Source of the DNA: Paeniglutamicibacter sp. Y32M11
GTDB taxonomy: Bacteria; Actinomycetota; Actinomycetes; Actinomycetales; Micrococcaceae
Direction: 5' to 3'
DNA length: 64,000 bases
NCBI RefSeq assembly: GCF_019285735.1
Contig: NZ_CP079107.1
Span: 4,030,001 to 4,094,000, forward strand
How positions within the stretch are numbered: position 1 is the first letter of the stretch; each line of letters begins with the position of its first letter. The notes below the pieces were generated by a model, which was given only the letters and a program-made list of their open reading frames with translations, was not told the origin of the DNA and did not search any database. Position numbers and translations under genes: made by a program. This document shows positions 657 to 17,229 of the stretch, piece after piece.

Positions 657-997
657 GGCATTTCCTGTCCTTTGGATGTGAGTGATGTACGTCCGCAGAG
701 CTTGCACGCGGCTGCATCCGTTGAAGCGTGTGGTGCCTAGGGGGTTCCCCCGGCGGCGCGGACCAATCGATGTCCTGCGCGCAGCTGCTATCGCGAGTCG
801 GGAGGCATTGCCCCCATGGGCGGGGCCGCGGCGCATCGCCAGTGGCCCCTTGCTTGCCTCCCGGAACGTGAGATCAGTATGTTGCCGATCACAACCCCGC
901 TCGGCGCGGAGTCCCAAACAGCGGGACAGGACGAGACCCCGGTCACAGTCGCGGGGCAAACTGTGTGCTGAAACGTTGGCAATCAAAAGGAGCAGGC
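657..997. other. Divergent intergenic region with one operator-like repeat
   Basis: These 341 bases separate the divergent MFS and SDR genes. No reading frame here looks like a gene. The recognisable elements are the inverted repeat at 911-927 and the AAAAGGAG ribosome binding site at 985-992 before the SDR. Confidence 0.6.
911..927. promoter_or_regulatory. Candidate operator 1 of the ATCCCG-N5-CGGGAT family
   Basis: GTCCCA-AACAG-CGGGAC: arms pair at five of six positions around a 5-nt spacer. It lies between the divergent MFS (656) and SDR (998) genes, about 79 nt upstream of the SDR start. It is one of five similar repeats in steroid-cluster promoter regions (see 7093, 7878, 12249, 15892). 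The binding protein is unknown. Confidence 0.5.
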
Positions 998-1883: not shown

Positions 1884-3071
1884 ATGACTACTGAAATGAC
1901 AGAAGTCACTGACACCGAGCAGTTCGACGAAGTTCGCCTGATCGACGCGGGCAGTAACCCGACCCGCTTCGCCCGCGGCTGGCACTGTCTGGGCCGCGCG
2001 AAGGACTTCCGCGACGGCAAGCCGCACACCGTCAAGGTCTTCGGCACCAAGGTTGTCATCTGGGCAGACACCAAGGACAAGCTCAACGTGCTGGACGCGT
2101 TCTGCCGCCATATGGGTGGGGACCTGTCCAAGGGCGAAATCAAGGGCGACGAGATCTCCTGCCCGTTCCACGACTGGCGCTGGGGCGGCGACGGCAAGTG
2201 CAAGGAGGTTCCTTACGCACAGCGTGTGCCGTTGCGTGCCCGTACCGCGGCCTGGGAGACCATGGAGAAAAACGGCCTGCTCTTTGTCTGGAACGACCCG
2301 CAAGGCAACCCTCCTCCGGCTGATGTCACCGTCCCGGAGATCGAGGGCTTCGGCACCGACGAGTGGAGCGACTGGTCCTGGAACACCTTCCTGGTAGAGG
2401 GCTCGAACTGCCGCGAGATCGTGGACAACGTCGTTGACATGGCGCACTTCTTCTACGTGCACTACCAGATGCCGCAGTACTTCAAGAACATCTTCGAAGG
2501 CCACGTCGCAGCCCAGCACATGCGCTCGACCGGCCGCGATGACATCCACACCGGCGTACAGCTGGATATGCCGGACTCGGAGACCATCTCCGACGCCGCG
2601 TACTACGGTCCGTCGTTCATGCTGGACACCATATACACGGTCGCCGGGGACACCACTGTAGAGACCAAGCTGGTCAACTGCCACTACCCGATCTCGCAGG
2701 ACTCGTTCGTGCTGATGTTCGGCACCTCCGTCCACACCATCGACGGAGTCACCCAGGAGCAGGCCGACGCTATGGCCGAGATGTTCACCGAAGGCGTGGA
2801 GACCCAATTCAAGCAGGACGTTGAGATCTGGAAGCACAAGACCCGCATCGAGAACCCCCTGTTGACCGCAGAGGATGGACCGGTCTACCAGCTGCGCCGC
2901 TGGTACGAGCAGTTCTTCGTGGATGTCGAGGACATCACCGAAGACATGGTCGCCCGCTTCGAATTCGAGGTGGACACCACCAAGGCCCTGGAAACCTGGA
3001 AGGTCGAGGTCGCCGAGAACTTGGCCAAGGGCATCGTTCCCGAGCAGGATCCGACCAAGGCGAAGGCCTAG
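1884..3071 (+). CDS. kshA: 3-ketosteroid 9alpha-hydroxylase, oxygenase component KshA
   Basis: Rieske non-haem iron oxygenase of 395 residues that hydroxylates C9 of 3-ketosteroids. With KstD action this makes the unstable intermediate whose ring B opens. Rieske ligands are C74, H76, C93 and H96 (FCRHMGG, CPFHDW); mononuclear iron ligands are H188 and H193 (DMAHFFYVH) and probably D312 (KQDVEIW). The blocks ARGWHCLG, EGSNCREI and FKNIFEGH match KshA proteins closely, as does the C-terminal RRWYEQFFVDV. The ATG at 1884 follows AGGAGAA. Electrons should come from the KshB-type reductase at 13860-14915. A small four-cysteine protein follows directly, and a degenerate paralogue lies at 12371. Confidence 0.95.
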   Translation: MTTEMTEVTDTEQFDEVRLIDAGSNPTRFARGWHCLGRAKDFRDGKPHTVKVFGTKVVIWADTKDKLNVLDAFCRHMGGDLSKGEIKGDEISCPFHDWRWGGDGKCKEVPYAQRVPLRARTAAWETMEKNGLLFVWNDPQGNPPPADVTVPEIEGFGTDEWSDWSWNTFLVEGSNCREIVDNVVDMAHFFYVHYQMPQYFKNIFEGHVAAQHMRSTGRDDIHTGVQLDMPDSETISDAAYYGPSFMLDTIYTVAGDTTVETKLVNCHYPISQDSFVLMFGTSVHTIDGVTQEQADAMAEMFTEGVETQFKQDVEIWKHKTRIENPLLTAEDGPVYQLRRWYEQFFVDVEDITEDMVARFEFEVDTTKALETWKVEVAENLAKGIVPEQDPTKAKA

Positions 3072-3156: not shown

Positions 3157-3435
3157 ATGAAACAAATCGATTGCCAGCAGTGCGGAACCGCCGTTCTGGT
3201 GGAGAAATTCAGCATTCCGCACACCAGTGTGCAGTGGGTCAGTGATGCGGCAACCTCGTGCCCCCGATTCGCCGAGGCCGCCGCCGATGCCAGGGACAGC
3301 GTGTGCGGCACCACCGCACTGAGCTGCTCGTCATTGAGCCAGAGCATCGACGATGCAGTGAGCGACGGAAGGCTGGAAATCAAGTCCCGCGTTGAGCCGG
3401 TCATCGGCGACACGCTCGTTGCCGACACCTTCTAG
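3157..3435 (+). CDS. Small four-cysteine protein linked to KshA (copy A)
   Basis: A 92-residue protein starting 85 nt after kshA with GAGGAG before its ATG. I do not recognise a named family. It carries C6xxC9, then C35 and C57 (plus C50), and the block VLVEKFSIPHTSVQW. The protein at 13417, which follows the second KshA homologue, has the same C-x2-C-x25-C spacing, the VLV-K block and TSV-x-W at the same place, so the two are paralogues. The CxxC pairs suggest metal or cluster binding, or a redox role. Association with the oxygenase (assembly, electron transfer or stability) is an inference from the repeated gene pairing. Confidence 0.8.
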   Translation: MKQIDCQQCGTAVLVEKFSIPHTSVQWVSDAATSCPRFAEAAADARDSVCGTTALSCSSLSQSIDDAVSDGRLEIKSRVEPVIGDTLVADTF

Positions 3436-4843: not shown

Positions 4844-5955
4844 CTACCGCGGCAGCTGGACAAATCCCTTCATTAGAATCCGTGCGGTGCGCAGCAGCGA
4901 GGTACACACCAGTACGCCCGCGGCATCTACGTGCGCCGCGGCAGACACCGGACCCGAGGGCGTACCCAGCCGGATCACCTCGCCGTCCAGGGAACCGGCC
5001 AGCGAGGCAGGAATGCTGCCGGGAATTCGCGCCGCAGCCGCCAGACACATGGCTCCGGTGCCCGGAACCGCCCGATGCGTCTGGCCATGGAAACCACCCG
5101 GATCAGCAGATCCACATCCTCGGTAGGGCTCAGCGACCCATCCAGCAGCTTGGCGGGTGCCGGAGCTGCGACCAGCACGATCTCGGGGATCACAGCGCCG
5201 CCCCCGCGGCTGTTGCACACAGCCTCATGGCGACCGCCCCGGCCCGGCGGAGCTTCTCCAGCAACACCAATGCCGCCTTGTCGGCGTCGATCTGCTCCGG
5301 GCTTTCGGTGCACTGAAACCCCAGCGACGCAGCCTCGATGACCACCATCGGCAGCGCGGCGTCAACCAGGCTTACCGGGTAGTCCCGCTCGTCGACACTG
5401 AGCACATCTACCGGGTCGCCGGTGGGCAGCAGCCCCGCACTGCGACTTCCGGCCGGATCCGGATAGCTCAGTTCAATGGGTGCGGCGGTGCCGTGCACTC
5501 CGGGCAGCGACAGCTCGCCTGAACTGCGGCCTGCCCGTCGCGTACCTCCAGCCTCACCTGCACGATCTTTGAGGGTTCGTGTTGAATAGTGTGAAGCGCT
5601 GCGGTCCGCCTGAAGCTTCCAGCAGCCCGGATTCAAGGGCAAAGGGCACCACCCGGAGGACTAATTACCGCAGTTTCCGGCATAGTCGACCGTCGCGGAA
5701 TCGACCGCAACCTGTCCAAAGGTATAGTCCAGATCCACTGCCTCGCGCTGCGAACGGGCAACCACCATGACCTTGGACAGCGAGGAGATCCCGCCGCCCA
5801 TCCCGTCCAGCTGGCGACCATAGCGGTCCGGGGGAGCCCAGTGCCTCGGCGAAGATCCGGTCCCAAGCGGAGCGATCCTCCGGGAGCCGGTACTCGTTGA
5901 AAAACAGCCCCATACTCGTTCCGCCGCGGACGAATGCCGCCTCAATCCACTGCAC
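4844..5955 (-). pseudogene. PrpF-family isomerase, broken by several frameshifts
   Basis: The reading starts at a GTG (5955) with the PrpF-like opening MQWIEAAFVRGGTSMG, then shifts frame near a GGGGG run at about 5831 and continues as DGMGGGISSLSKVMVV and VDYAGNCGN. An in-frame stop follows at 5661. Further conserved pieces appear in other frames: VPFALESGLLEASGG, LSVDERDYPVSLVDAAL, and PSGPVSAAAHVDAAG at the end. At least four frame changes are needed to read it through. PrpF proteins isomerise 2-methylaconitate or related tricarboxylates (for example 4-oxalomesaconate tautomerases). The neighbours on both sides are intact, so decay or a locally poor assembly are both possible. Confidence 0.85.
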
Positions 5956-6025
5956 TCAGACTCCTCATGGCATCACTCGCGGACCGCGCTGCGGCCCCTG
6001 TGGCAATTCTAGGTGCGTCGCACCG

Positions 6026-7006
6026 TTAGCCACGGACCCGGTCCAGCTCGTGCAGGAACTCAAGGAACTTCACGCTGACTTCGGCGGCGCGCTCCATGGC
6101 GATCAGGTAGCCGCCGCCGGGCACACTCTGCACCGAACGCACGTCCTCATGGTGGGCGGCGAGCTGAGCTCGGATACCTTCGCCGTACTGATCGGCCAGC
6201 TGCAGGTCGGTCTCCGAGCCCAGGAAGTAGTACGGGACGGTGGTGCTTCCGGCTCCGCGGGCGTTGCGGTATTCCCAATTCAGGTCCGCCACCCGGTACC
6301 AGTTGATGCCGCCACCGAAGCCACCGCGGGCAAAGTCGCTGACGTAGGCTTCCAGCTCCCACTCGGTCAGCCAGGACCACGGCAGAGCCGGCGGCTGAGG
6401 CAGCGCCTCGCGGTACGCGGTTCCCGGCGTGTTGGCGTACACCGCGGCAAAATCCCCGTCGGTGGACAGGGTATGGAAGATCTTGGAGATAATGTCGCGC
6501 GGGTGGGCGTCATAGTCGGCGCGGGCCCCGTGCGGGTCCGCATGGTAGTAGGCCATGTGGTTGAAGCTTTTCTTGCCGCGCTCGAGCTCGGTCTGCGAGG
6601 GAAGTGCGTCGTAGTGCGGCAGCCCGGCGTATTGCAGGCCGATCAGCGCGCGCACCCGCTCCGGGTGTTCGACGGCCAGGTCATAGGCGGCAAACATGCC
6701 GTAGTCGATCCCGGAAAACACGGCTTGCTCCTCCCCCAGGTGATCGAGCAGGGCACACAGATCGGCGCTGATCACATCGGCGCGGTAGGCCGACAGTTCC
6801 TCGGGGGCCTCGGACTGACCCATGCCCCGCAGGTCCGGGGCAACCACCCGGTAGCCGGCCTCTGCCAGTGCGGTCAATTGGTGCCGCCAGCTGAACCAGG
6901 TGTGCGGGAAGCCGTGCAGCAGGACCACCAGCGGACCCTGGCCTTCTTCCACATAGTGCATCCGAAGATCGTTGATCCGGGCGTAATGGTGGGTCCAGTT
7001 CCTCAT
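6026..7006 (-). CDS. Alpha/beta hydrolase, epoxide-hydrolase-like, catalytic His not seen
   Basis: A 326-residue alpha/beta hydrolase. Visible are the oxyanion-hole segment HGFPHTW (residues 31-37), APDLRGMGQSE, and the nucleophile elbow GIDYG with D101 as the expected aspartate nucleophile of epoxide hydrolases and haloalkane dehalogenases. Where these enzymes carry the catalytic histidine (usually GH before an ExPEEV helix), this protein reads VPGGGYLIAMERAAEV, so residues 299-300 are Gly-Tyr. The start at 7006 follows AAAGGAG. It diverges from the TetR gene across the repeats at 7059-7109. Substrate unknown; activity is doubtful unless another histidine substitutes. Confidence 0.82.
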   Translation of the reverse strand: MRNWTHHYARINDLRMHYVEEGQGPLVVLLHGFPHTWFSWRHQLTALAEAGYRVVAPDLRGMGQSEAPEELSAYRADVISADLCALLDHLGEEQAVFSGIDYGMFAAYDLAVEHPERVRALIGLQYAGLPHYDALPSQTELERGKKSFNHMAYYHADPHGARADYDAHPRDIISKIFHTLSTDGDFAAVYANTPGTAYREALPQPPALPWSWLTEWELEAYVSDFARGGFGGGINWYRVADLNWEYRNARGAGSTTVPYYFLGSETDLQLADQYGEGIRAQLAAHHEDVRSVQSVPGGGYLIAMERAAEVSVKFLEFLHELDRVRG

Positions 7007-7058
7007 GGCGGCTCCTTTGGAAAAGTCAACGGCGGCGGTATTCTCAAACCGCCCACCA

Positions 7059-7109
7059 TTACATCCCGGTACTACCGTCGCTCGGGCGTTATATCCCGGT
7101 GGACGGGAT
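7059..7109. promoter_or_regulatory. Candidate operator 2: perfect ATCCCG-GTGGA-CGGGAT plus an upstream half-site
   Basis: The perfect inverted repeat is at 7093-7109. Thirty bases earlier the 12-mer TTACATCCCGGT (7059-7070) repeats TTATATCCCGGT (7089-7100), placing the two half-sites on the same helix face. The sites lie between the divergent hydrolase (7006) and TetR (7231) genes. Confidence 0.6.
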
Positions 7110-7123
7110 GTTCCGCCGCCAAG

Positions 7124-7137
7124 AACGAGCGCTTGGT
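7124..7137. promoter_or_regulatory. Possible KstR2-type operator
   Basis: On the minus strand this reads ACCAAGCGCTCGTT, one mismatch from the published KstR2 consensus AnCAAGnnCTTGnT as I remember it. It lies 94 nt upstream of the KstR2-like TetR gene and would fit autoregulation. A single near match could be chance. Confidence 0.35.
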
Positions 7138-7230
7138 TTGTTGCTAGGATGGAATTCGACTTTGTCGCGCCCCCGCGCGGCGCAAGAGCCAGCAAATTCT
7201 GCAACTCCACCCTCTGCGAAAGAGCGATTA

Positions 7231-7818
7231 ATGGCCGACAAGACCGCACCCACCCGCCGGACTGTCATTCTCGACAATGCTGCCCGGCTCTTTGCCCAGC
7301 AGGGCATCGGCGGCACCTCGGTGCGCGAGATCTCGGCCTCCGTGGGAATGCTTTCGGGCAGCCTGTACCACCATTTCGCATCCAAGGATGAGATGGTCGA
7401 GGAAGTCCTCACCGAGTTCCTCGAGGAACTGCAGGGACGCTACCGCGGCGTCACCGAATCCGGCGCCCAACCACGCGAAGCGTTGAACCAGCTGATCCGC
7501 ATCACCTTGGAGATCATCCGCGATTATCCGTACGCCACGCAGATCTACCAGAACGAGGTCGCGTACATTCAGAAGCTGCCCAAGTCGACCGGTGCCCGCG
7601 CGATCAGCAGCGACATCGCCAAGTTGTGGGTTGAGGTTATTGAGCTGGGCATCGAGAGCGGGATATTCAAGAAGGACCTGGATGCGAACGTCGCCCACCG
7701 CCTGATGCGCGACTCGCTATGGCTGACCGCCCGCTGGTTCACCCCGTCCAAGAAGTACACGCTGGATCAGCTGACGGCCGACTGCAGCGCGCTGTTCCTC
7801 GACGGGATCATGGCCTAG
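7231..7818 (+). CDS. kstR2: TetR family regulator, KstR2-like
   Basis: A 195-residue TetR regulator. The helix-turn-helix (residues about 10-55) ends in the recognition segment LSGSLYHHFASKDEM, which closely resembles KstR2, the repressor of the C/D-ring steroid genes in mycobacteria and rhodococci. The C-terminal ligand domain has the KstR2-like stretches LWVEVIELGIESG and LTARWFTP. The ATG at 7231 gives the usual length; its ribosome binding site is weak. The FadD3-like ligase gene lies immediately downstream, as expected for a KstR2 target. In other genera the inducer is the CoA thioester made by FadD3. Orthology rests on remembered sequences, so it is probable rather than proven. Confidence 0.8.
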   Translation: MADKTAPTRRTVILDNAARLFAQQGIGGTSVREISASVGMLSGSLYHHFASKDEMVEEVLTEFLEELQGRYRGVTESGAQPREALNQLIRITLEIIRDYPYATQIYQNEVAYIQKLPKSTGARAISSDIAKLWVEVIELGIESGIFKKDLDANVAHRLMRDSLWLTARWFTPSKKYTLDQLTADCSALFLDGIMA

Positions 7819-7877: not shown

Positions 7878-7894
7878 CTCCCGCCCACCGGGAC
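7878..7894. promoter_or_regulatory. Candidate operator 3 of the ATCCCG-N5-CGGGAT family
   Basis: CTCCCG-CCCAC-CGGGAC: five of six arm positions pair. It lies about 167 nt upstream of the FadD3-like ligase start, in the gap between the TetR gene and the ligase. Confidence 0.45.
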
Positions 7895-8052
7895 CACACA
7901 AAAACTGCGTTCCCATCCTCAGTAGCCTCAACACATTTCCCCCGCGCATGCTTTACGCAGCCTGGCCGGGGTGAAGTTTGAGCTGGATCACGCCAGAAAG
8001 AGCGTCCCAACAGTTGAGGACGGTGCTGCGAGAAGACAAGGGAGCCACGTGC

Positions 8053-10568: not shown

Positions 10569-12125
10569 CTAGCCGACCTGCGCTTTCAGCGGTGCCTTCA
10601 GGGTCTGCGCCGCACGGTAGGCGAAGACCATGCCCGAACCCAACGGGGTGCCGGGGCCCGGGTAGAAGCCGCCGGAGAACGAGGCGCTGGTATTTCCCAC
10701 CGCGTACAGGCCCGGAACCGGGGTGCCGTCCTCGCGCAGCACACGCGCGTCCACGTCGGTGCGCAGGCCGCCCTTGGTGCCCAGGTCGCTGAGCACCATG
10801 CGCGCTGCGTAGTACGGTGGCTGGTCGATCGCAATCAGGGTCGGGCCCGGACCATAGGCCGGGTCGGCGAAGAACTGGTCATACGGGTTCTCGCCGCGGT
10901 GGAAGTCCTCATCCACGCCAGTGACGGTGAAGCCGTTGAACCGCTCGATGCTTGCCTTCAGGGCGTCGACCGGCAGCTCTGTGGCTTGGGACAGCTCTTC
11001 GAGCGTATCCGCCTTGACCCAGGTGCCAGCCTCCAGATGCTCTTGCGGGGAGGTGTTGTACGGACGCATGATGCCCGGCAGCTCGCCGCCGAAGCGCGAA
11101 TCAAAAATGAACCAGGACGGGATGCGCTCCGGCGCTGCGGCCAGCACGCGGCCCATCTGGTCGTAAGGCAGGCACTCGTTGGCAAAGCGCTGGCCGTTGG
11201 TATCAAGCCACACACCTCCGCGGAACCCCAGTGCAAAGGCAGTGTTTCCCCGTGGTTGCACGGCACCCGGGCACCACCAGGCTTCGTTGAGCATCTCCAC
11301 GGCGCCGCCGGCTTTCTGGCCAGCCAGGATGCCGGTGCCAACGTTTGCACCGGCCGGAGCCATGGTCCACGCCGCGGAGCCCGGCGCTTGGTTCTCGGTG
11401 CGCCATTCCTGGTTCGCCTCGAAACCGCCGGCTCCAAGGATCACGCCCTCGGTGGCGCGGACGCGGCGGGTACCCTCGGAGTCCTTCACGATCACTCCGG
11501 TCACCCGGCCGTCTTCGGTGATCAGGTCGATCAGTTCGGTTTCCAGACGAATGGTGCCGTTGCCAGTGTTGGTCAGCGCCAGCAGCAGCCGGCCGATCAG
11601 CGCCTGGCCGGCGGTCAGCGGGCCATCAGGGTGAGGCTGGTTGTAGCGGTCGTATTCAACCACCGGACGCACCAGATCGGCCAGGTCGCCGATTTCCTCG
11701 CGCGGCAGATCCACCGGCATCATCGAGCGGCCCAGCGGCTTGCTCTCGGGGCCGGTGAAGTAGTCGGGGAATGAGGTCCAGTAGAACTCGATGGCCGGAT
11801 CCCGCTCGAAGAAGGCAACCAGTTCCGGGGCGGTATCGACGAATGCCTCACGGCGTTCGATCTCATGATCACCCATGACGGAGGCAAGGTAGGCCTTGGC
11901 CGACTCGGTTGAATCCTCGACCTCGGCGCGCTGCTGCACCTGGGTTCCCGGCAGCCAGCAGGAGGCGCCGGCATAGGCCGAAGCACCGCCCAGGAGGTCG
12001 GTCTTCTCAACGAGCAGGGCCTTCAGGCCCCGCGAAGCCGCGCTATAGGCGCCCGCCATGGCCGCAGCGCCGGAACCGACGACCACAACGTCGTACTCGT
12101 CGTCCCAAACCTGATTGTTGGACAT
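10569..12125 (-). CDS. kstD: 3-ketosteroid delta1-dehydrogenase (KstD family)
   Basis: FAD-dependent dehydrogenase of 518 residues. The N-terminal dinucleotide motif GSGAAAMAGAYSAA (G17, G19) follows VVVVG, and the C-terminus has FYPGPGTPLGSGMVFAY, where the tyrosine and glycine of YPGPG correspond to catalytic KstD residues. LGAGGFEAN and GNTSASFSGG are also typical. The enzyme introduces the C1-C2 double bond into ring A of 3-ketosteroids and with KshA triggers ring B opening. The ATG at 12125 follows AAAGGAG; the longer in-frame start lacks such a site. It diverges from the KshA-like gene at 12371 across operator 4. A related 3-keto-5alpha-steroid specificity cannot be excluded. Confidence 0.9.
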   Translation of the reverse strand: MSNNQVWDDEYDVVVVGSGAAAMAGAYSAASRGLKALLVEKTDLLGGASAYAGASCWLPGTQVQQRAEVEDSTESAKAYLASVMGDHEIERREAFVDTAPELVAFFERDPAIEFYWTSFPDYFTGPESKPLGRSMMPVDLPREEIGDLADLVRPVVEYDRYNQPHPDGPLTAGQALIGRLLLALTNTGNGTIRLETELIDLITEDGRVTGVIVKDSEGTRRVRATEGVILGAGGFEANQEWRTENQAPGSAAWTMAPAGANVGTGILAGQKAGGAVEMLNEAWWCPGAVQPRGNTAFALGFRGGVWLDTNGQRFANECLPYDQMGRVLAAAPERIPSWFIFDSRFGGELPGIMRPYNTSPQEHLEAGTWVKADTLEELSQATELPVDALKASIERFNGFTVTGVDEDFHRGENPYDQFFADPAYGPGPTLIAIDQPPYYAARMVLSDLGTKGGLRTDVDARVLREDGTPVPGLYAVGNTSASFSGGFYPGPGTPLGSGMVFAYRAAQTLKAPLKAQVG

Positions 12126-12248
12126 AGTTTCTCCTTTGTCGTCCACATGAGTGTGTGCGCTAGACAATCAGACCCGGAGAGGTGGTGAACGTCTCATCCC
12201 ACCCAGCAGGACAACCGTGGACAACCGCCCGCACAAAACTTCTGTGAC

Positions 12249-12265
12249 ATCCCACACACCGGGAT
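12249..12265. promoter_or_regulatory. Candidate operator 4 of the ATCCCG-N5-CGGGAT family
   Basis: ATCCCA-CACAC-CGGGAT, one mismatch in the arms. It sits almost centrally between the divergent kstD (start 12125) and KshA-like (start 12371) genes. The spacer ends in AC before CGGGAT, as in operators 2 (reverse strand), 3 and 5. Confidence 0.6.
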
Positions 12266-12370
12266 CTACCGGTTACCAGGGTGAACTTTATGGCTAGATA
12301 TAGGTTTACGGGTTCACCGGAACCCGGTCCTTGGGGAGCGGCTTCAGGACGGGCTTGACGAAGGAATGGG

Positions 12371-13417
12371 ATGCACATGGTTCGGGTCAATCCAGAGCCA
12401 AAGGACCGGCATACGCCTCATGCTTCCCCGCCGCGTTTCGCGCGCGGGTGGCACTGCCTGGGCATGTCCCACAGCTTCAACGCCGCCGACGCCCACAGCC
12501 TGCAGGCATTCGGCCGGCGGCTGCTGGTGAAGGCGGACCCCGACGCTTCACCGCGGGTGCTGCTGGGCGAGCCCGGCCAACAGCGCGAACTGCCCGCACT
12601 TGAACAGGACGGTCTGCTGTTCGTTTGGCATGACCCGCAGGAAAATCCCCCGCCGGAGCAGCTGGCCATCCCCCGCATCACCGGGCCCGACGCGGCCAAC
12701 TGCGCCGAGGGCCCGGGCTGGTCAAACTGGTCGTGGACGGAAACGGTCCTCACGGCCCACACCGGGCAGGTCATGGAGCACCTGGTGCGCTTGGCCAACT
12801 CGACCCACGTCACAGACGGTGAACCGCTGTACTTCAAGAACGTCTTCGAGGGGCATCGGGCCGCCCAGTATTTCGAAGGGCCACTGCATCACAGCTACCA
12901 GCCGCAGGATCCGGCACCGCAGGGGGCGAAGATCCTCTTGGCAAACTCCGTGGCAAGCTACTTCGGTCCCGCGGTGATGATTTCCCAGCTGGACTACGTC
13001 ATGGAAGACCGCAGCCTTGACGCAGTGGTGCTCACTGCGCACTACCCGATCGACGAGCACCACCTGGTGCTGATGACCGGGGTGCTGGTGCGCACCGAAC
13101 AGCCCGCGGACCCGGAGCTCAAGGCCGTCGCCGCGCGGCACGCCACGCAGATCCTGCGGTCCATCACCGGTGCCGTGCACGCACAACTGCGAGGTGGCCA
13201 GGACGAGGACTCGCGGAAGACCCCCGGAGCCGACAGCCCAGTCGCGGCGCTGCGGCGCTGGTACGGTCAGTTCTTTGTCGATACAGGCGACGTCGATTCC
13301 GGGATGACCGACCGGTTCGAATACGAGGTGGATACCACCATGCCCATGGAGCTGTGGACCCGGTCCTCGGCACGAAACCTGATCCTCCGCAGAGTCAACG
13401 GAAAGCAGCTGGCGTAA
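12371..13417 (+). CDS. KshA-like protein lacking Rieske and mononuclear iron ligands
   Basis: A 348-residue protein clearly homologous to KshA: RFARGWHCLG, GLLFVWHDPQENPPP, YFKNVFEGH and LRRWYGQFFVDTGDV all have counterparts. Roughly 44 residues of the Rieske domain are missing, including both CxH and CxxH. N143 and T148 stand where KshA has iron ligands H188 and H193, and the third ligand (D312) aligns with glycine. The frame is intact, the ATG follows AAGGAA, and the conserved C-terminus argues against simple decay. It cannot be an oxygenase on its own. A structural or regulatory partner of KshA, a hetero-oligomer subunit or a substrate-binding protein are possibilities. It overlaps the next gene by one base. 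Confidence 0.88.
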   Translation: MHMVRVNPEPKDRHTPHASPPRFARGWHCLGMSHSFNAADAHSLQAFGRRLLVKADPDASPRVLLGEPGQQRELPALEQDGLLFVWHDPQENPPPEQLAIPRITGPDAANCAEGPGWSNWSWTETVLTAHTGQVMEHLVRLANSTHVTDGEPLYFKNVFEGHRAAQYFEGPLHHSYQPQDPAPQGAKILLANSVASYFGPAVMISQLDYVMEDRSLDAVVLTAHYPIDEHHLVLMTGVLVRTEQPADPELKAVAARHATQILRSITGAVHAQLRGGQDEDSRKTPGADSPVAALRRWYGQFFVDTGDVDSGMTDRFEYEVDTTMPMELWTRSSARNLILRRVNGKQLA

Positions 13418-13707
13418 TGTCGAATCGTGAACGAGATGAGCGCACCGAAACCCTGGGCACCCAAACCGGCATGCAGCCGGTGCGCTGCACCGAATGCCTA
13501 GCCAAGGTGCTGGTGCGCAAGTCCGCGTGGGCCCAAACCAGTGTCAAGTGGACCGCCCAGGCGCTGGACCTGTGCCGTGAGCGGCCTGCGGTCGCCGAAA
13601 GCAACCTGCCGCGCGACCAGTATGTGGGGTGCGAAACCCTGCGCGCGGTGATCCGTGATGCAACCGCTCAGGGCAACCTGGAGCTTGTAGATCAGGCCGT
13701 GTCTTAG
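13417..13707 (+). CDS. Small four-cysteine protein linked to the KshA-like gene (copy B)
   Basis: A 96-residue protein whose ATG overlaps the stop of the KshA-like gene (TAATG), so translation is probably coupled. C24xxC27, C53 and C72, with VLVRKSAWAQTSVKW between, match the paralogue at 3157 (C6xxC9, C35, C57). The C-terminal half also aligns weakly (ETLRAVIRDATAQGNLEL against SLSQSIDDAVSDGRLEI). The first 18 residues are extra; an internal ATG at 13471 would remove them but has no ribosome binding site. No named family is recognised. Metal or cluster binding is suggested by the cysteines only. Confidence 0.82.
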   Translation: MSNRERDERTETLGTQTGMQPVRCTECLAKVLVRKSAWAQTSVKWTAQALDLCRERPAVAESNLPRDQYVGCETLRAVIRDATAQGNLELVDQAVS

Positions 13708-13859: not shown

Positions 13860-14915
13860 CTATCCCTCGTAGGAGATCTTCACGTGCGGACTCACTGCCG
13901 TGGCCTGGCAGGCCAGGATCAGGCCTTCTTCCAGGTCTTGGTCTTCGAGCACCTCGTTGCGTTCCATCTCGACCTTGCCCTCCAGCAGGATGCAGGTGCA
14001 GGCGCTGCACGCCCCCTCGCGGCAGGAAAAGGGCGCGTCGATGCCTGCGTTGAGCAGCACGTCGAGCAGCTTGTTTCCGGCGGGCCAGGCTAAGTTGCTG
14101 GTATTTCCGTCGAGCTCCACTTCGATGGTGGCCGTTTCACCGTCCGCTTCGTGAATCAGCGGTTTCATAGGTGCGAATGGATCCGCATCTAACGAAGTAA
14201 AGCGTTCAATGTGGATGCGCTCGGGAGCGGTCCCCACCTTCTCCAGCGCCTTCTCGATGCAGTCCATGAACGGGCCCGGGCCGCAGATGAAGGCCTCGCG
14301 CTGCGCGTAGGGCTGAGCCAGGGCTGCCATCGCTGCCAGATCAGGGATGCCCTGCACGGTCTCCAACCAGTGGATCACGTGCAGGCGCCCGGGGTAGGCC
14401 TTGGTCAGCGCCACCAGTTCATCTTTGAAGATCACCGACTGCTCGTCGCGGTTGGCGTAGATCAGTGTCACGATGCCGCTGCCCGCGATCAGCGCGGATT
14501 TCAGGATAGACATCACCGGGGTCACTCCGCTGCCCGCTGCGAACAGCAGGAAGTCGGTGTCCAACGTGGTCGGCACGAAGGTTCCGGCCGGCTTGAGCAC
14601 CTCCAGCACGTGCCCGGCTTCCACGTTGTCGCAGATCCAGTTCGAGGCATACCCGTCGCGCGTGCGCTTGATGGTGACCTTAAGCTGCTCGTCCTGTTCA
14701 GGTGAGCTGCACAGTGAATAACAGCGGGCCGCGTCATGGTCCCGGTCACTGGGGATGCGCAGGGTCAGGAACTGACCCGGGCGGTAGCGGAAACTTTCCG
14801 ACTGTTCGGAGGCCGGCTCAAGCACCAGGGTATGCGCATCTGCGGTTTCCCGGATTACTTCAACTACTCGGGTTTGCAGCGCGGTGATCCGTGGGCTGCT
14901 GACGGTGCTGGTCAT
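13860..14915 (-). CDS. kshB: 3-ketosteroid 9alpha-hydroxylase reductase component KshB
   Basis: A 351-residue ferredoxin-reductase/ferredoxin fusion that passes electrons from NAD(P)H to KshA. In order: an FAD-binding barrel with RCYSLCSSP (about residues 64-72), an NAD-binding domain with LLFAAGSGVTPVMSI and FICGPGPFM, and a C-terminal plant-type [2Fe-2S] domain with SCREGACSACTC plus a last cysteine in LACQA. This domain order matches KshB/HmpA. The ATG at 14915 overlaps the stop of hsaD by four bases. It is the only such reductase in the window, so it probably serves the KshA at 1884. Confidence 0.92.
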   Translation of the reverse strand: MTSTVSSPRITALQTRVVEVIRETADAHTLVLEPASEQSESFRYRPGQFLTLRIPSDRDHDAARCYSLCSSPEQDEQLKVTIKRTRDGYASNWICDNVEAGHVLEVLKPAGTFVPTTLDTDFLLFAAGSGVTPVMSILKSALIAGSGIVTLIYANRDEQSVIFKDELVALTKAYPGRLHVIHWLETVQGIPDLAAMAALAQPYAQREAFICGPGPFMDCIEKALEKVGTAPERIHIERFTSLDADPFAPMKPLIHEADGETATIEVELDGNTSNLAWPAGNKLLDVLLNAGIDAPFSCREGACSACTCILLEGKVEMERNEVLEDQDLEEGLILACQATAVSPHVKISYEG

Positions 14916-15814
14916 GACACGTTCTCCTCACGGTTCAGGAATTCAACGACGACGCTTTCAAAGGCCTGCTTCTGCTCGATCATGGCCCAGTGCCCACACC
15001 GGGGAAACACATGCAGTTCCACGTCGGGAATGGTGCGCATCGGGATCAGCGCGGCGTCCATTGGCGTGACCCGGTCATCGCGGCCCCACAGGATCAGCGT
15101 CTTCGCCTTGACCTTATGCAACATTGCCCAGGCCGGGGGGACATCGGATTCTGCTTGTGCGGCAATCATGGCCTTCATCGCTGCGGCGCTGTACATCTTG
15201 CGGGCGCTCGCCAGGGTTCCAGGTTCGGTGGCCAGAGCCCAGCGCTTTTCAATCAGCTCTTCGGTCACGGTTTCTTCGTCGTAAACCATTGAGTGAAGCC
15301 ACTGGATGAGACGTTCGCGGGTGGGGTCCTCGGTGAAGGCAACCAACAGATTGATTCCCTCGGCGGGGAACGGGGCGAAGGTATTCAGGCCCAGTCCGCC
15401 CACAGTCACCAGACGGCGCACGCGCTCGGGATGACTCATGGAGAACAGTGTTCCGACCATGCCGCCCATGGAGTTGCCGATGATGTCGACCGTCTCGAGG
15501 CCCAACCCGTCGAGCAGGTCGATCACGGCCTGGGCCCCTGCAGGCATGGGGTGCAGGTCTGTGGGGTCACTGATTCCGAAACCCGGGAATTCCACCACAT
15601 AGCAGCGGAAATGCTTGGCAAAGGCCGGCAATACAGCACCGAAGTTCTGCCATCCGCTGACGCCCGGCCCCGAACCATGCAGGAACACCAGGGGACTGCC
15701 CTCGCCGGCTTCCCAGTAGCGCAGCGTTCCCTGCTCGGTGGGCAATTCACGCAGGATTGCGTCGGTGCCGGCTAGAGGCGTTCCGCCCGGCAAACTCCGA
15801 AGTTCCGTAGTCAT
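14912..15814 (-). CDS. hsaD: meta-cleavage product hydrolase HsaD (4,9-DSHA hydrolase)
   Basis: A 300-residue alpha/beta hydrolase of the MCP-hydrolase group, which splits the ring A meta-cleavage product into a hexadienoate and the C/D-ring propionate. The oxyanion-hole motif HGSGPG (residues 46-51), nucleophile S115 in GNSMGG, the aspartate in GRDDRVTP and the histidine in CGHWAMIEQ form the complete triad. The ATG at 15814 is preceded by GAGGAG and gives the family length. Its promoter region is shared with hsaA and contains operator 5. The context with HsaA and HsaC supports the steroid assignment over a BphD-type biphenyl role. Confidence 0.92.
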   Translation of the reverse strand: MTTELRSLPGGTPLAGTDAILRELPTEQGTLRYWEAGEGSPLVFLHGSGPGVSGWQNFGAVLPAFAKHFRCYVVEFPGFGISDPTDLHPMPAGAQAVIDLLDGLGLETVDIIGNSMGGMVGTLFSMSHPERVRRLVTVGGLGLNTFAPFPAEGINLLVAFTEDPTRERLIQWLHSMVYDEETVTEELIEKRWALATEPGTLASARKMYSAAAMKAMIAAQAESDVPPAWAMLHKVKAKTLILWGRDDRVTPMDAALIPMRTIPDVELHVFPRCGHWAMIEQKQAFESVVVEFLNREENVS

Positions 15815-15891
15815 CTGATGGGCTCCTCGTTCTGCGGATACAAATGGTCTTTGGTGTACCTTATGGCCGCACAGCACCCAGCTTGGCGCGG

Positions 15892-16044: not shown

Positions 16045-17229
16045 ATGACGACAACCACCGTGAGCGATGTCCTCACCACCCGTGCCGATGAGCTCCGCTC
16101 ATTGGCTTCCGTCAATGAAGAACTGGGCAAGCTCAGCGATGAAACCGTGCAGATCCTGCGTGAGAGCGGCGTTATGAAGCTGCTGGCACCGGTCGAGTAC
16201 GGCGGCACCCGCGCCCACCCTGTGGAATTCGCCGAAACCGTCATGAAGATCGCAAGCCTGGACGGCTCAGCCGGCTGGGTTGCCGGAGTGGTCGGCGTGC
16301 ACCCATGGGAGCTGGAGCTCATGTCGCCGAAGCTGCAGGAGGAAATCTGGGGCGAAGACGAAGACACCTGGGTTTCCTCGCCATACGCACCTATGGGCAC
16401 CGCATCTCCAGTTGAGGGCGGCTACCGCTTCACCGGCCACTGGCAGTTCTCCACCGGCACCGACCACTCGGAGTGGGTCATCCTCGGCGCCTTCCTAGGC
16501 GATTCGGAGGGCAAGCCGGTTCAGCCACCGCGCTTCCTTCACGTGGTTGTTCCGCGCAAGGACTACACCATCGTGGAGGACTCCTGGGAGGTCGTGGGGC
16601 TGAAGGGCACCGGCAGCAAGGACGTCATCATCGATGACGTTTTCGTTCCCGAATACCGCGCCATCGACCAGGCCGAGCTGTTCGCCGGCGAGACGGCCCG
16701 CAAGGCAGGGAAGACCGAGCCCATTCACCGCCTGCCGTTCTACAGCATCTTCCCGGTTGGACTGACCGCAGCTGTCATCGGAATCGCCGAGGGAGCGCTG
16801 CAGGCCCACCTCGACTACCAGCGCGAACGCGTACAGATCAACGGATTCAAGTCAGTCGAAGACCCATACACGATGTACGCGGTCAGCGAGGCCGCCGGTG
16901 AAATCAGCGCTTCGCGCGACACCCTGCTGGCCAGCATCAGCCGCCTCTACGACACGGTGGCCGCCGGCGGAGAAATCAGCCTCGAGCAGCGCGCGGTTGC
17001 CCGCCGCACCCAGATCCAGGCCGCATGGCGTGCGACCAACGCCATCGACGCGATCCTTTCGCGCTCGGGCGGCAACGGACTGCGCCTGCACAACCCGGTC
17101 CAACGTTTCTGGCGCGACGCCCACATGGGCCTGGCTCATGCGATCCATGTCCCGGGCCCGAGCTACCACGCCGCGATCATGACCGAGGTAGGCGTCGAAC
17201 CACCAGCGAATCTCGCCGCCGCCGTCTAG
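16045..17229 (+). CDS. hsaA: 3-HSA hydroxylase, flavin-dependent oxygenase HsaA
   Basis: A 394-residue flavin-dependent monooxygenase with the acyl-CoA-dehydrogenase fold, the same length as known HsaA. It hydroxylates the phenolic ring A (3-HSA) to the catechol 3,4-DHSA using reduced flavin from a separate reductase. Readable blocks are APVEYGGTRAHPVEF, GWVAGVVGVHPWELEL, the FTGHWQFSTGTDHSEW loop, VVGLKGTGSKDV and the C-terminal HMGLAHAIHVPGPSY. No reductase (HsaB) gene adjoins it; the nearest candidate is at 48762. The next two plus-strand genes probably share its transcript. Confidence 0.92.
   Translation: MTTTTVSDVLTTRADELRSLASVNEELGKLSDETVQILRESGVMKLLAPVEYGGTRAHPVEFAETVMKIASLDGSAGWVAGVVGVHPWELELMSPKLQEEIWGEDEDTWVSSPYAPMGTASPVEGGYRFTGHWQFSTGTDHSEWVILGAFLGDSEGKPVQPPRFLHVVVPRKDYTIVEDSWEVVGLKGTGSKDVIIDDVFVPEYRAIDQAELFAGETARKAGKTEPIHRLPFYSIFPVGLTAAVIGIAEGALQAHLDYQRERVQINGFKSVEDPYTMYAVSEAAGEISASRDTLLASISRLYDTVAAGGEISLEQRAVARRTQIQAAWRATNAIDAILSRSGGNGLRLHNPVQRFWRDAHMGLAHAIHVPGPSYHAAIMTEVGVEPPANLAAAV

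Follow-up and report, generated by a model that had tools for sequence, protein, structure and literature searches.

The gene that stands opposite a kstD-like gene in the 64,000-nucleotide stretch of DNA analysed here (the window) raises the question of what a protein can still do when it has kept the body of the oxygenase KshA and lost every residue that holds its metals. A preliminary description had read this gene (12371..13417, + strand), called here pseudo-KshA, as an open frame with a good ribosome site, lacking about 44 residues of the Rieske domain with all four cluster ligands and carrying Asn, Thr and apparently Gly in place of the three iron ligands. As roles it had put forward a non-catalytic chain in a KshA hetero-oligomer, a regulator that binds steroids, or a protein that channels the substrate. 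The frame runs for 348 codons from an ATG, and AAGGA, a ribosome-site-like sequence, is found at 12361-12365. Alignment with intact KshA confirmed the deletion as a single 44-residue gap after residue 64, which spans both Rieske motifs and with them all four ligands. In the KshA numbering used here for ligand and pocket residues (that of PMC4064121), H181 is replaced by Asn and H186 by Thr, as described; D304 aligns with an Ala beside a Gly where the alignment is weak, so that "apparently Gly" was a fair reading. The bridging residue D178 is aligned with Arg.

The search against Pfam agreed with the alignment, as pseudo-KshA matched KshA_C (PF19298) alone (E 8.4e-39, 134 bits for a cut-off of 23) and gave no Pfam match to the Rieske domain (PF00355), while the window's other KshA (1884..3071, + strand) matched both. 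The protein is therefore without the Cys, His, Cys and His ligands of the Rieske [2Fe-2S] cluster and without the iron ligands His181, His186 and Asp304 by which a functional KshA is recognized. It retains the KshA_C domain and, in a predicted model, a fold like that of solved KshA, and its solved relatives by sequence are the three KshA sequences of the PDB. By the known mechanism, a protein that has lost all its metal sites would be unable to transfer electrons or to activate oxygen.

The neighbourhood is that of a steroid degradation locus. The divergent neighbour, placed opposite as the preliminary description had it, is a kstD-like FAD dehydrogenase (10569..12167, − strand) with NCBIfam matches below the curated cut-offs. 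Downstream lie a small four-Cys protein gene (see below), a kshB-like reductase with FAD, NAD and 2Fe-2S domains (13860..14915, − strand; named by domains and position), an hsaD-like hydrolase (14912..15877, − strand) and an hsaA-like monooxygenase subunit (16045..17229, + strand), the last two below NCBIfam cut-offs. The KshA at 1884, with all its ligands intact, belongs to a second cassette of kshA and small protein gene.

The region between kstD and the stripped gene contains an inverted repeat, TCCCACMCASYRGGA, twice: as an operator-like TCCCACCCAGCAGGA (12197..12211, + strand), kept in six aligned loci, and as TCCCACACACCGGGA (12250..12264, + strand), with 0-2 mismatches across these loci. 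They are followed by a promoter-like block, TTTATGGCTAGATATAG[AG]TTTA (12287..12308, + strand), which differs by at most one base among the four loci of the short form defined below. With one mismatch, operator-like copies also precede the SDR-kshA genes (912..926, + strand; recurring in G001 and G004) and the ligase gene at 7978 (7879..7893, + strand; recurring in G001, G036 and G085). At no more than one mismatch the window thus holds four copies, where 0.08 would be expected from shuffled sequence; two of the four are those that defined the motif. When two mismatches were allowed, the five matches found were not unusual (2.1 expected; 9 of 100 shuffles held as many), and therefore only the stricter count carries weight. 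The shared repeat suggests, at the level of sequence, that the stripped gene and the canonical kshA are under joint control. We take the motif to be unlike the KstR and KstR2 operators. A TetR-like gene, named by eye (7099-7818), has a weaker copy of the repeat at 7094 and may encode its regulator.

The preliminary description had asked whether orthologues with the same loss exist elsewhere and always accompany a normal KshA. A search of 59 relatives identified two full-length orthologues, that of G001 (86%) and that of G036 (68%), with further, more distant orthologues in G004 and G006; a family-level search added G085 (66%). With the window genome (G000), the carriers of the ligand-less form are thus six in number, four with the short form (G000, G001, G036 and G085) and two with a less eroded one (G004 and G006). 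This latter form is a middle stage: 14 residues are deleted and the two His ligands of the iron and one His of the Rieske cluster are lost, and three of the four Rieske ligands, D178 and D304 are kept. In the short forms, position 178 is occupied by Arg or His. The family-level search, a sample of 395 genomes, gave matches in 12: the six carriers, five with a single intact KshA, all of genus g53, and a weak partial match in G406. Among 97 aligned KshA rows all eight residues are present in 90, the other seven being the six carriers and L023, which is G085 again. None of 79 other actinobacterial KshA loci, drawn from the best 80 of 551, has lost a ligand. Profile searches of samples from the order (396 genomes) and class (394), with up to five candidates scored per genome, found nothing above 366 bits except the window's own protein and that of G036, the carriers scoring at least 610 bits; the 26 records of a plasmid search were all below 60% identity.

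Each of the six genomes also has an intact KshA, which lies 10-14 kb from the stripped gene in five of them; in G004 the two are on different contigs. By genus, matches were found in 4 of 15 genomes of g1 and 2 of 18 of g23, every one with both the stripped and the intact gene, and in 5 of 29 of g53, with one copy each. Neither the conservation of the loss nor its company of a normal KshA failed in this check, although the co-occurrence would also be expected from history alone, because the pathway needs a working enzyme.

The g53 loci (L119-L123, from G300, G245, G321, G327 and G349) have the whole kstD-kshA-small protein-kshB-hsaD-hsaA block with a single, intact KshA, and are the natural comparison for the stripped gene. 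The slot that this KshA occupies, between kstD and small protein-kshB-hsaD-hsaA, holds the stripped gene in the window, G001, G006 and G085; the fetched stretch of G036 stops short of hsaA, and the contig of G004 short of kshB. In KshA trees the six stripped proteins stand beside g53 and at a distance from the canonical KshA that each genome also encodes, and they do so even if one or the other stripped form is omitted. Two free trees group all six (support 99/98 and 99/97), but the AU test does not reject a tree constrained to join the less eroded form to g53 (p-AU 0.086), and long branches meet at this point. As far as these sequences indicate, a single origin of both stripped forms is favoured over independent loss. 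In a tree of the small four-Cys proteins (50 rows, including partners from four of the five g53 loci and four of the six canonical cassettes), the pseudo-KshA and g53 partners group together (100/98) and the canonical partners group with Rhodococcus jostii and Speluncibacter (100/97). The shared slot, the KshA trees and the small-protein tree therefore argue for the decay of a kshA cassette at its original position, in genomes with a second cassette; we infer the order of these two events. As judged from sequence, the stripped gene is descended in place from a KshA lineage other than that at 1884, with loss of the catalytic residues of an enzyme whose function in g53 is judged from its intact ligands.

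The canonical KshA of these genomes (1884-3071) sits on a long branch (0.72). Its placement among actinobacteria varies, with Rhodococcus and Speluncibacter rows in one tree (87/92) and a Nocardioides row in another (54). Its dS between G000 and G036 is 0.34, compared with 0.48-0.74 in other cluster genes, and it may have been transferred later.

To what extent is the stripped gene under selection? Pairwise dN/dS (NG86) was 0.288 for G000/G001, 0.124 for G036/G085, 0.325 for G000/G036, 0.350 for G001/G085, 0.373 for G001/G036 and 0.155 for G004/G006, with bootstrap intervals below 0.5 for five pairs (G001/G085 left out). Intact KshA gave 0.096, 0.119, 0.061, 0.095 and 0.027 in matched genome pairs, and KshA pairs of g53 0.069-0.218. 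Relaxed selection, named in the preliminary description as the mark of a decaying duplicate, was therefore not found: dN/dS is well below 1, although constraint is weaker than on intact KshA in four of the five matched pairs (3 to 6 times its dN/dS; equal in G036/G085). For each of four pairs simulated, pN/pS was below all 300 neutral simulations. The frames are open in all six carriers, which is in itself weak evidence of selection because 1%, 8%, 26% and 41% of the neutral simulations for the four pairs stayed free of stops. Taken together, these results show that a gene without catalytic residues is retained under purifying selection. A decaying duplicate of the KshA at 1884 is disfavoured by synteny, trees and dN/dS alike.

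Relative to the short-form relatives, dN/dS of pseudo-KshA is 0.29-0.33, that of other cluster genes 0.05-0.31, that of the canonical small protein 0.13-0.53 and that of the small protein beside pseudo-KshA 0.33-0.74. A long frame at 5897-7147 (+ strand) looks spurious, with dN/dS of 1.3-2.4 in the five loci where it could be aligned; on the opposite strand lies a hydrolase-like ORF (6026-7249) with relatives in the same place.

Constraint on pseudo-KshA peaks in residues 201-240, its best conserved internal part, and in residues 316-348. The latter confirm the C-terminal conservation noted earlier (pN 0.013 and pS 0.33 for G000/G036), part of which is at the DNA level, in the final codons, where the putative ribosome site of the following gene is situated. 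According to PMC4064121, KshA trimers form with the participation of C-terminal features, to which residues 316-348 presumably correspond. The predicted model has a KshA-like fold, towards which the KshA rows of the input alignment pull it (mean pLDDT 72.8; below 50 for the former ligand stretch 143-150), and retains the sheet of the helix-grip fold. Of the substrate pocket, residues Q204, Y232 and M238 (KshA numbering) are kept in all six carriers. The pocket is otherwise partly lost: Thr replaces N257 in every carrier, the four short forms have changes at F301, W308 and residue 240, and conservation is poor in the region of the former D304 and W308.

We propose that, in an ancestor of these bacteria, the kshA between kstD and kshB was stripped of Rieske cluster, iron site and bridging Asp where it stood, hydroxylation presumably being taken over by the second cassette nearby, and that the gene may have been kept on account of its KshA-like body still doing something. 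Pseudo-KshA could enter the canonical KshA trimer, or stack on it, through its C-terminal segment and helix-grip sheet, and might serve as an alpha-prime subunit without catalysis of its own, adjusting the stability of the enzyme, the entry of substrate or the delivery of electrons. A conserved pseudoenzyme of this kind, for which we infer expression, binding to KshA and an effect on it, is our leading candidate, with a probability that falls just short of even. It has to accommodate a dN/dS that exceeds the value for intact KshA 3 to 6 times in four of the five matched pairs, the share of C-terminal conservation due to GGAAAG before the next gene, and the restriction of the stripped form to six among all genomes searched.

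The best of the alternatives, although we consider it unlikely, is that pseudo-KshA is a steroid carrier or sensor, in which the metal-free helix-grip domain, an SRPBCC-type fold for hydrophobic ligands, would bind a steroid and either hand it on or signal its presence, without oxygenation. The retention of Q204, Y232 and M238, the position of residues 201-240 within the sheet and the adjacent kstD are consistent with such a role, but the replacement of N257, F301, W308 and residue 240 and the poor conservation near the former D304 and W308 argue against it. We prefer the partner reading, since no part has changed less than the C-terminus, whereas the pocket has suffered erosion.

The small four-Cys gene (13417..13707, + strand; 96 residues) starts within the stop of pseudo-KshA (TAATG), and GGAAAG, a ribosome-site-like block (13400-13405), lies in the last pseudo-KshA codons in all six carriers. 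Its canonical counterpart is at 3157..3435 (+ strand). A protein of this pattern (CxxC...K...TS...W...C...C) is encoded directly 3' of kshA in 74 of 79 actinobacterial loci (L024-L102, from the best 80 of 551), gives no match above chance in Pfam or NCBIfam, and is modelled as short strands and helices (mean pLDDT 73); it appears to be a general, as yet unnamed accessory protein of KSH. By gene order, its mycobacterial member is probably Rv3527. The latter is listed in PMC6429209 as a hypothetical protein essential for survival in macrophages and mice. The TAATG overlap and the embedded GGAAAG would also fit a frame kept mainly for translation of the small gene, pseudo-KshA itself doing little. 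We judge this improbable, as amino-acid constraint extends to residues 201-240, far from the junction, and the small gene is no more constrained than pseudo-KshA in the three short-form relatives.

Equally slight is the chance of a new, metal-independent catalysis on a steroid intermediate: residues such as E174-H175 and T257 are common to the six proteins and absent from g53, but no conserved catalytic-looking set was identified beyond them, and the former active-site stretch varies and is of low confidence in the model. That the gene is a relic on its way out, as the stepwise loss across relatives and the raised dN/dS might indicate, is just as improbable given six open frames, dN/dS of 0.12 and 0.16 in two within-genus pairs and pN/pS below every neutral simulation.

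A stripped KshA gene kept intact beside a working KshA in related bacteria suggests a helper role for a dead enzyme. Intact (g53), half-eroded (G004 and G006) and fully stripped stages exist in living relatives, making the path from oxygenase to something else directly testable. KSH opens the steroid ring and is of industrial relevance (PMC4064121). A natural non-catalytic KshA partner, if real, could bear on KSH stability and selectivity.

With regard to known systems, pseudo-KshA differs from KshA, the oxygenase of 3-ketosteroid 9alpha-hydroxylase (PDB 2ZYL, 4QCK, 4QDC, 4QDD and 4QDF), in having no Rieske motifs, iron ligands or bridging Asp, and thus lacks what a Rieske oxygenase needs for the known mechanism. 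Among kinases and proteases, pseudoenzymes are well known. No metal-free KshA or metal-free Rieske oxygenase chain kept by selection was among the literature matches listed, in a search covering accessible texts and few subscription journals. NdmC, an N-demethylase chain of the alpha type, is like pseudo-KshA without a Rieske domain of its own, but reportedly keeps its iron site and activity. The beta subunits of Rieske oxygenases form a family unrelated to the alpha subunits, whereas pseudo-KshA descends from an alpha subunit. Their non-catalytic supporting role, as presented in PMC12445004, would nevertheless be analogous. That two distinct alpha chains can share an assembly is known from the alpha3-alpha-prime3 hexamer of the Rieske N-demethylase NdmA/NdmB (PMC12445004), in which both chains are enzymes, whereas the pseudo-KshA chain is metal-free and its assembly proposed. 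A more far-reaching reading, to which we give a likelihood clearly below even, is that pseudo-KshA has become a dedicated, metal-free alpha-prime subunit in a heteromeric 3-ketosteroid hydroxylase. It would then be an accessory chain, beta-like in role, that derives from an alpha chain and arose after a second KshA had taken over.
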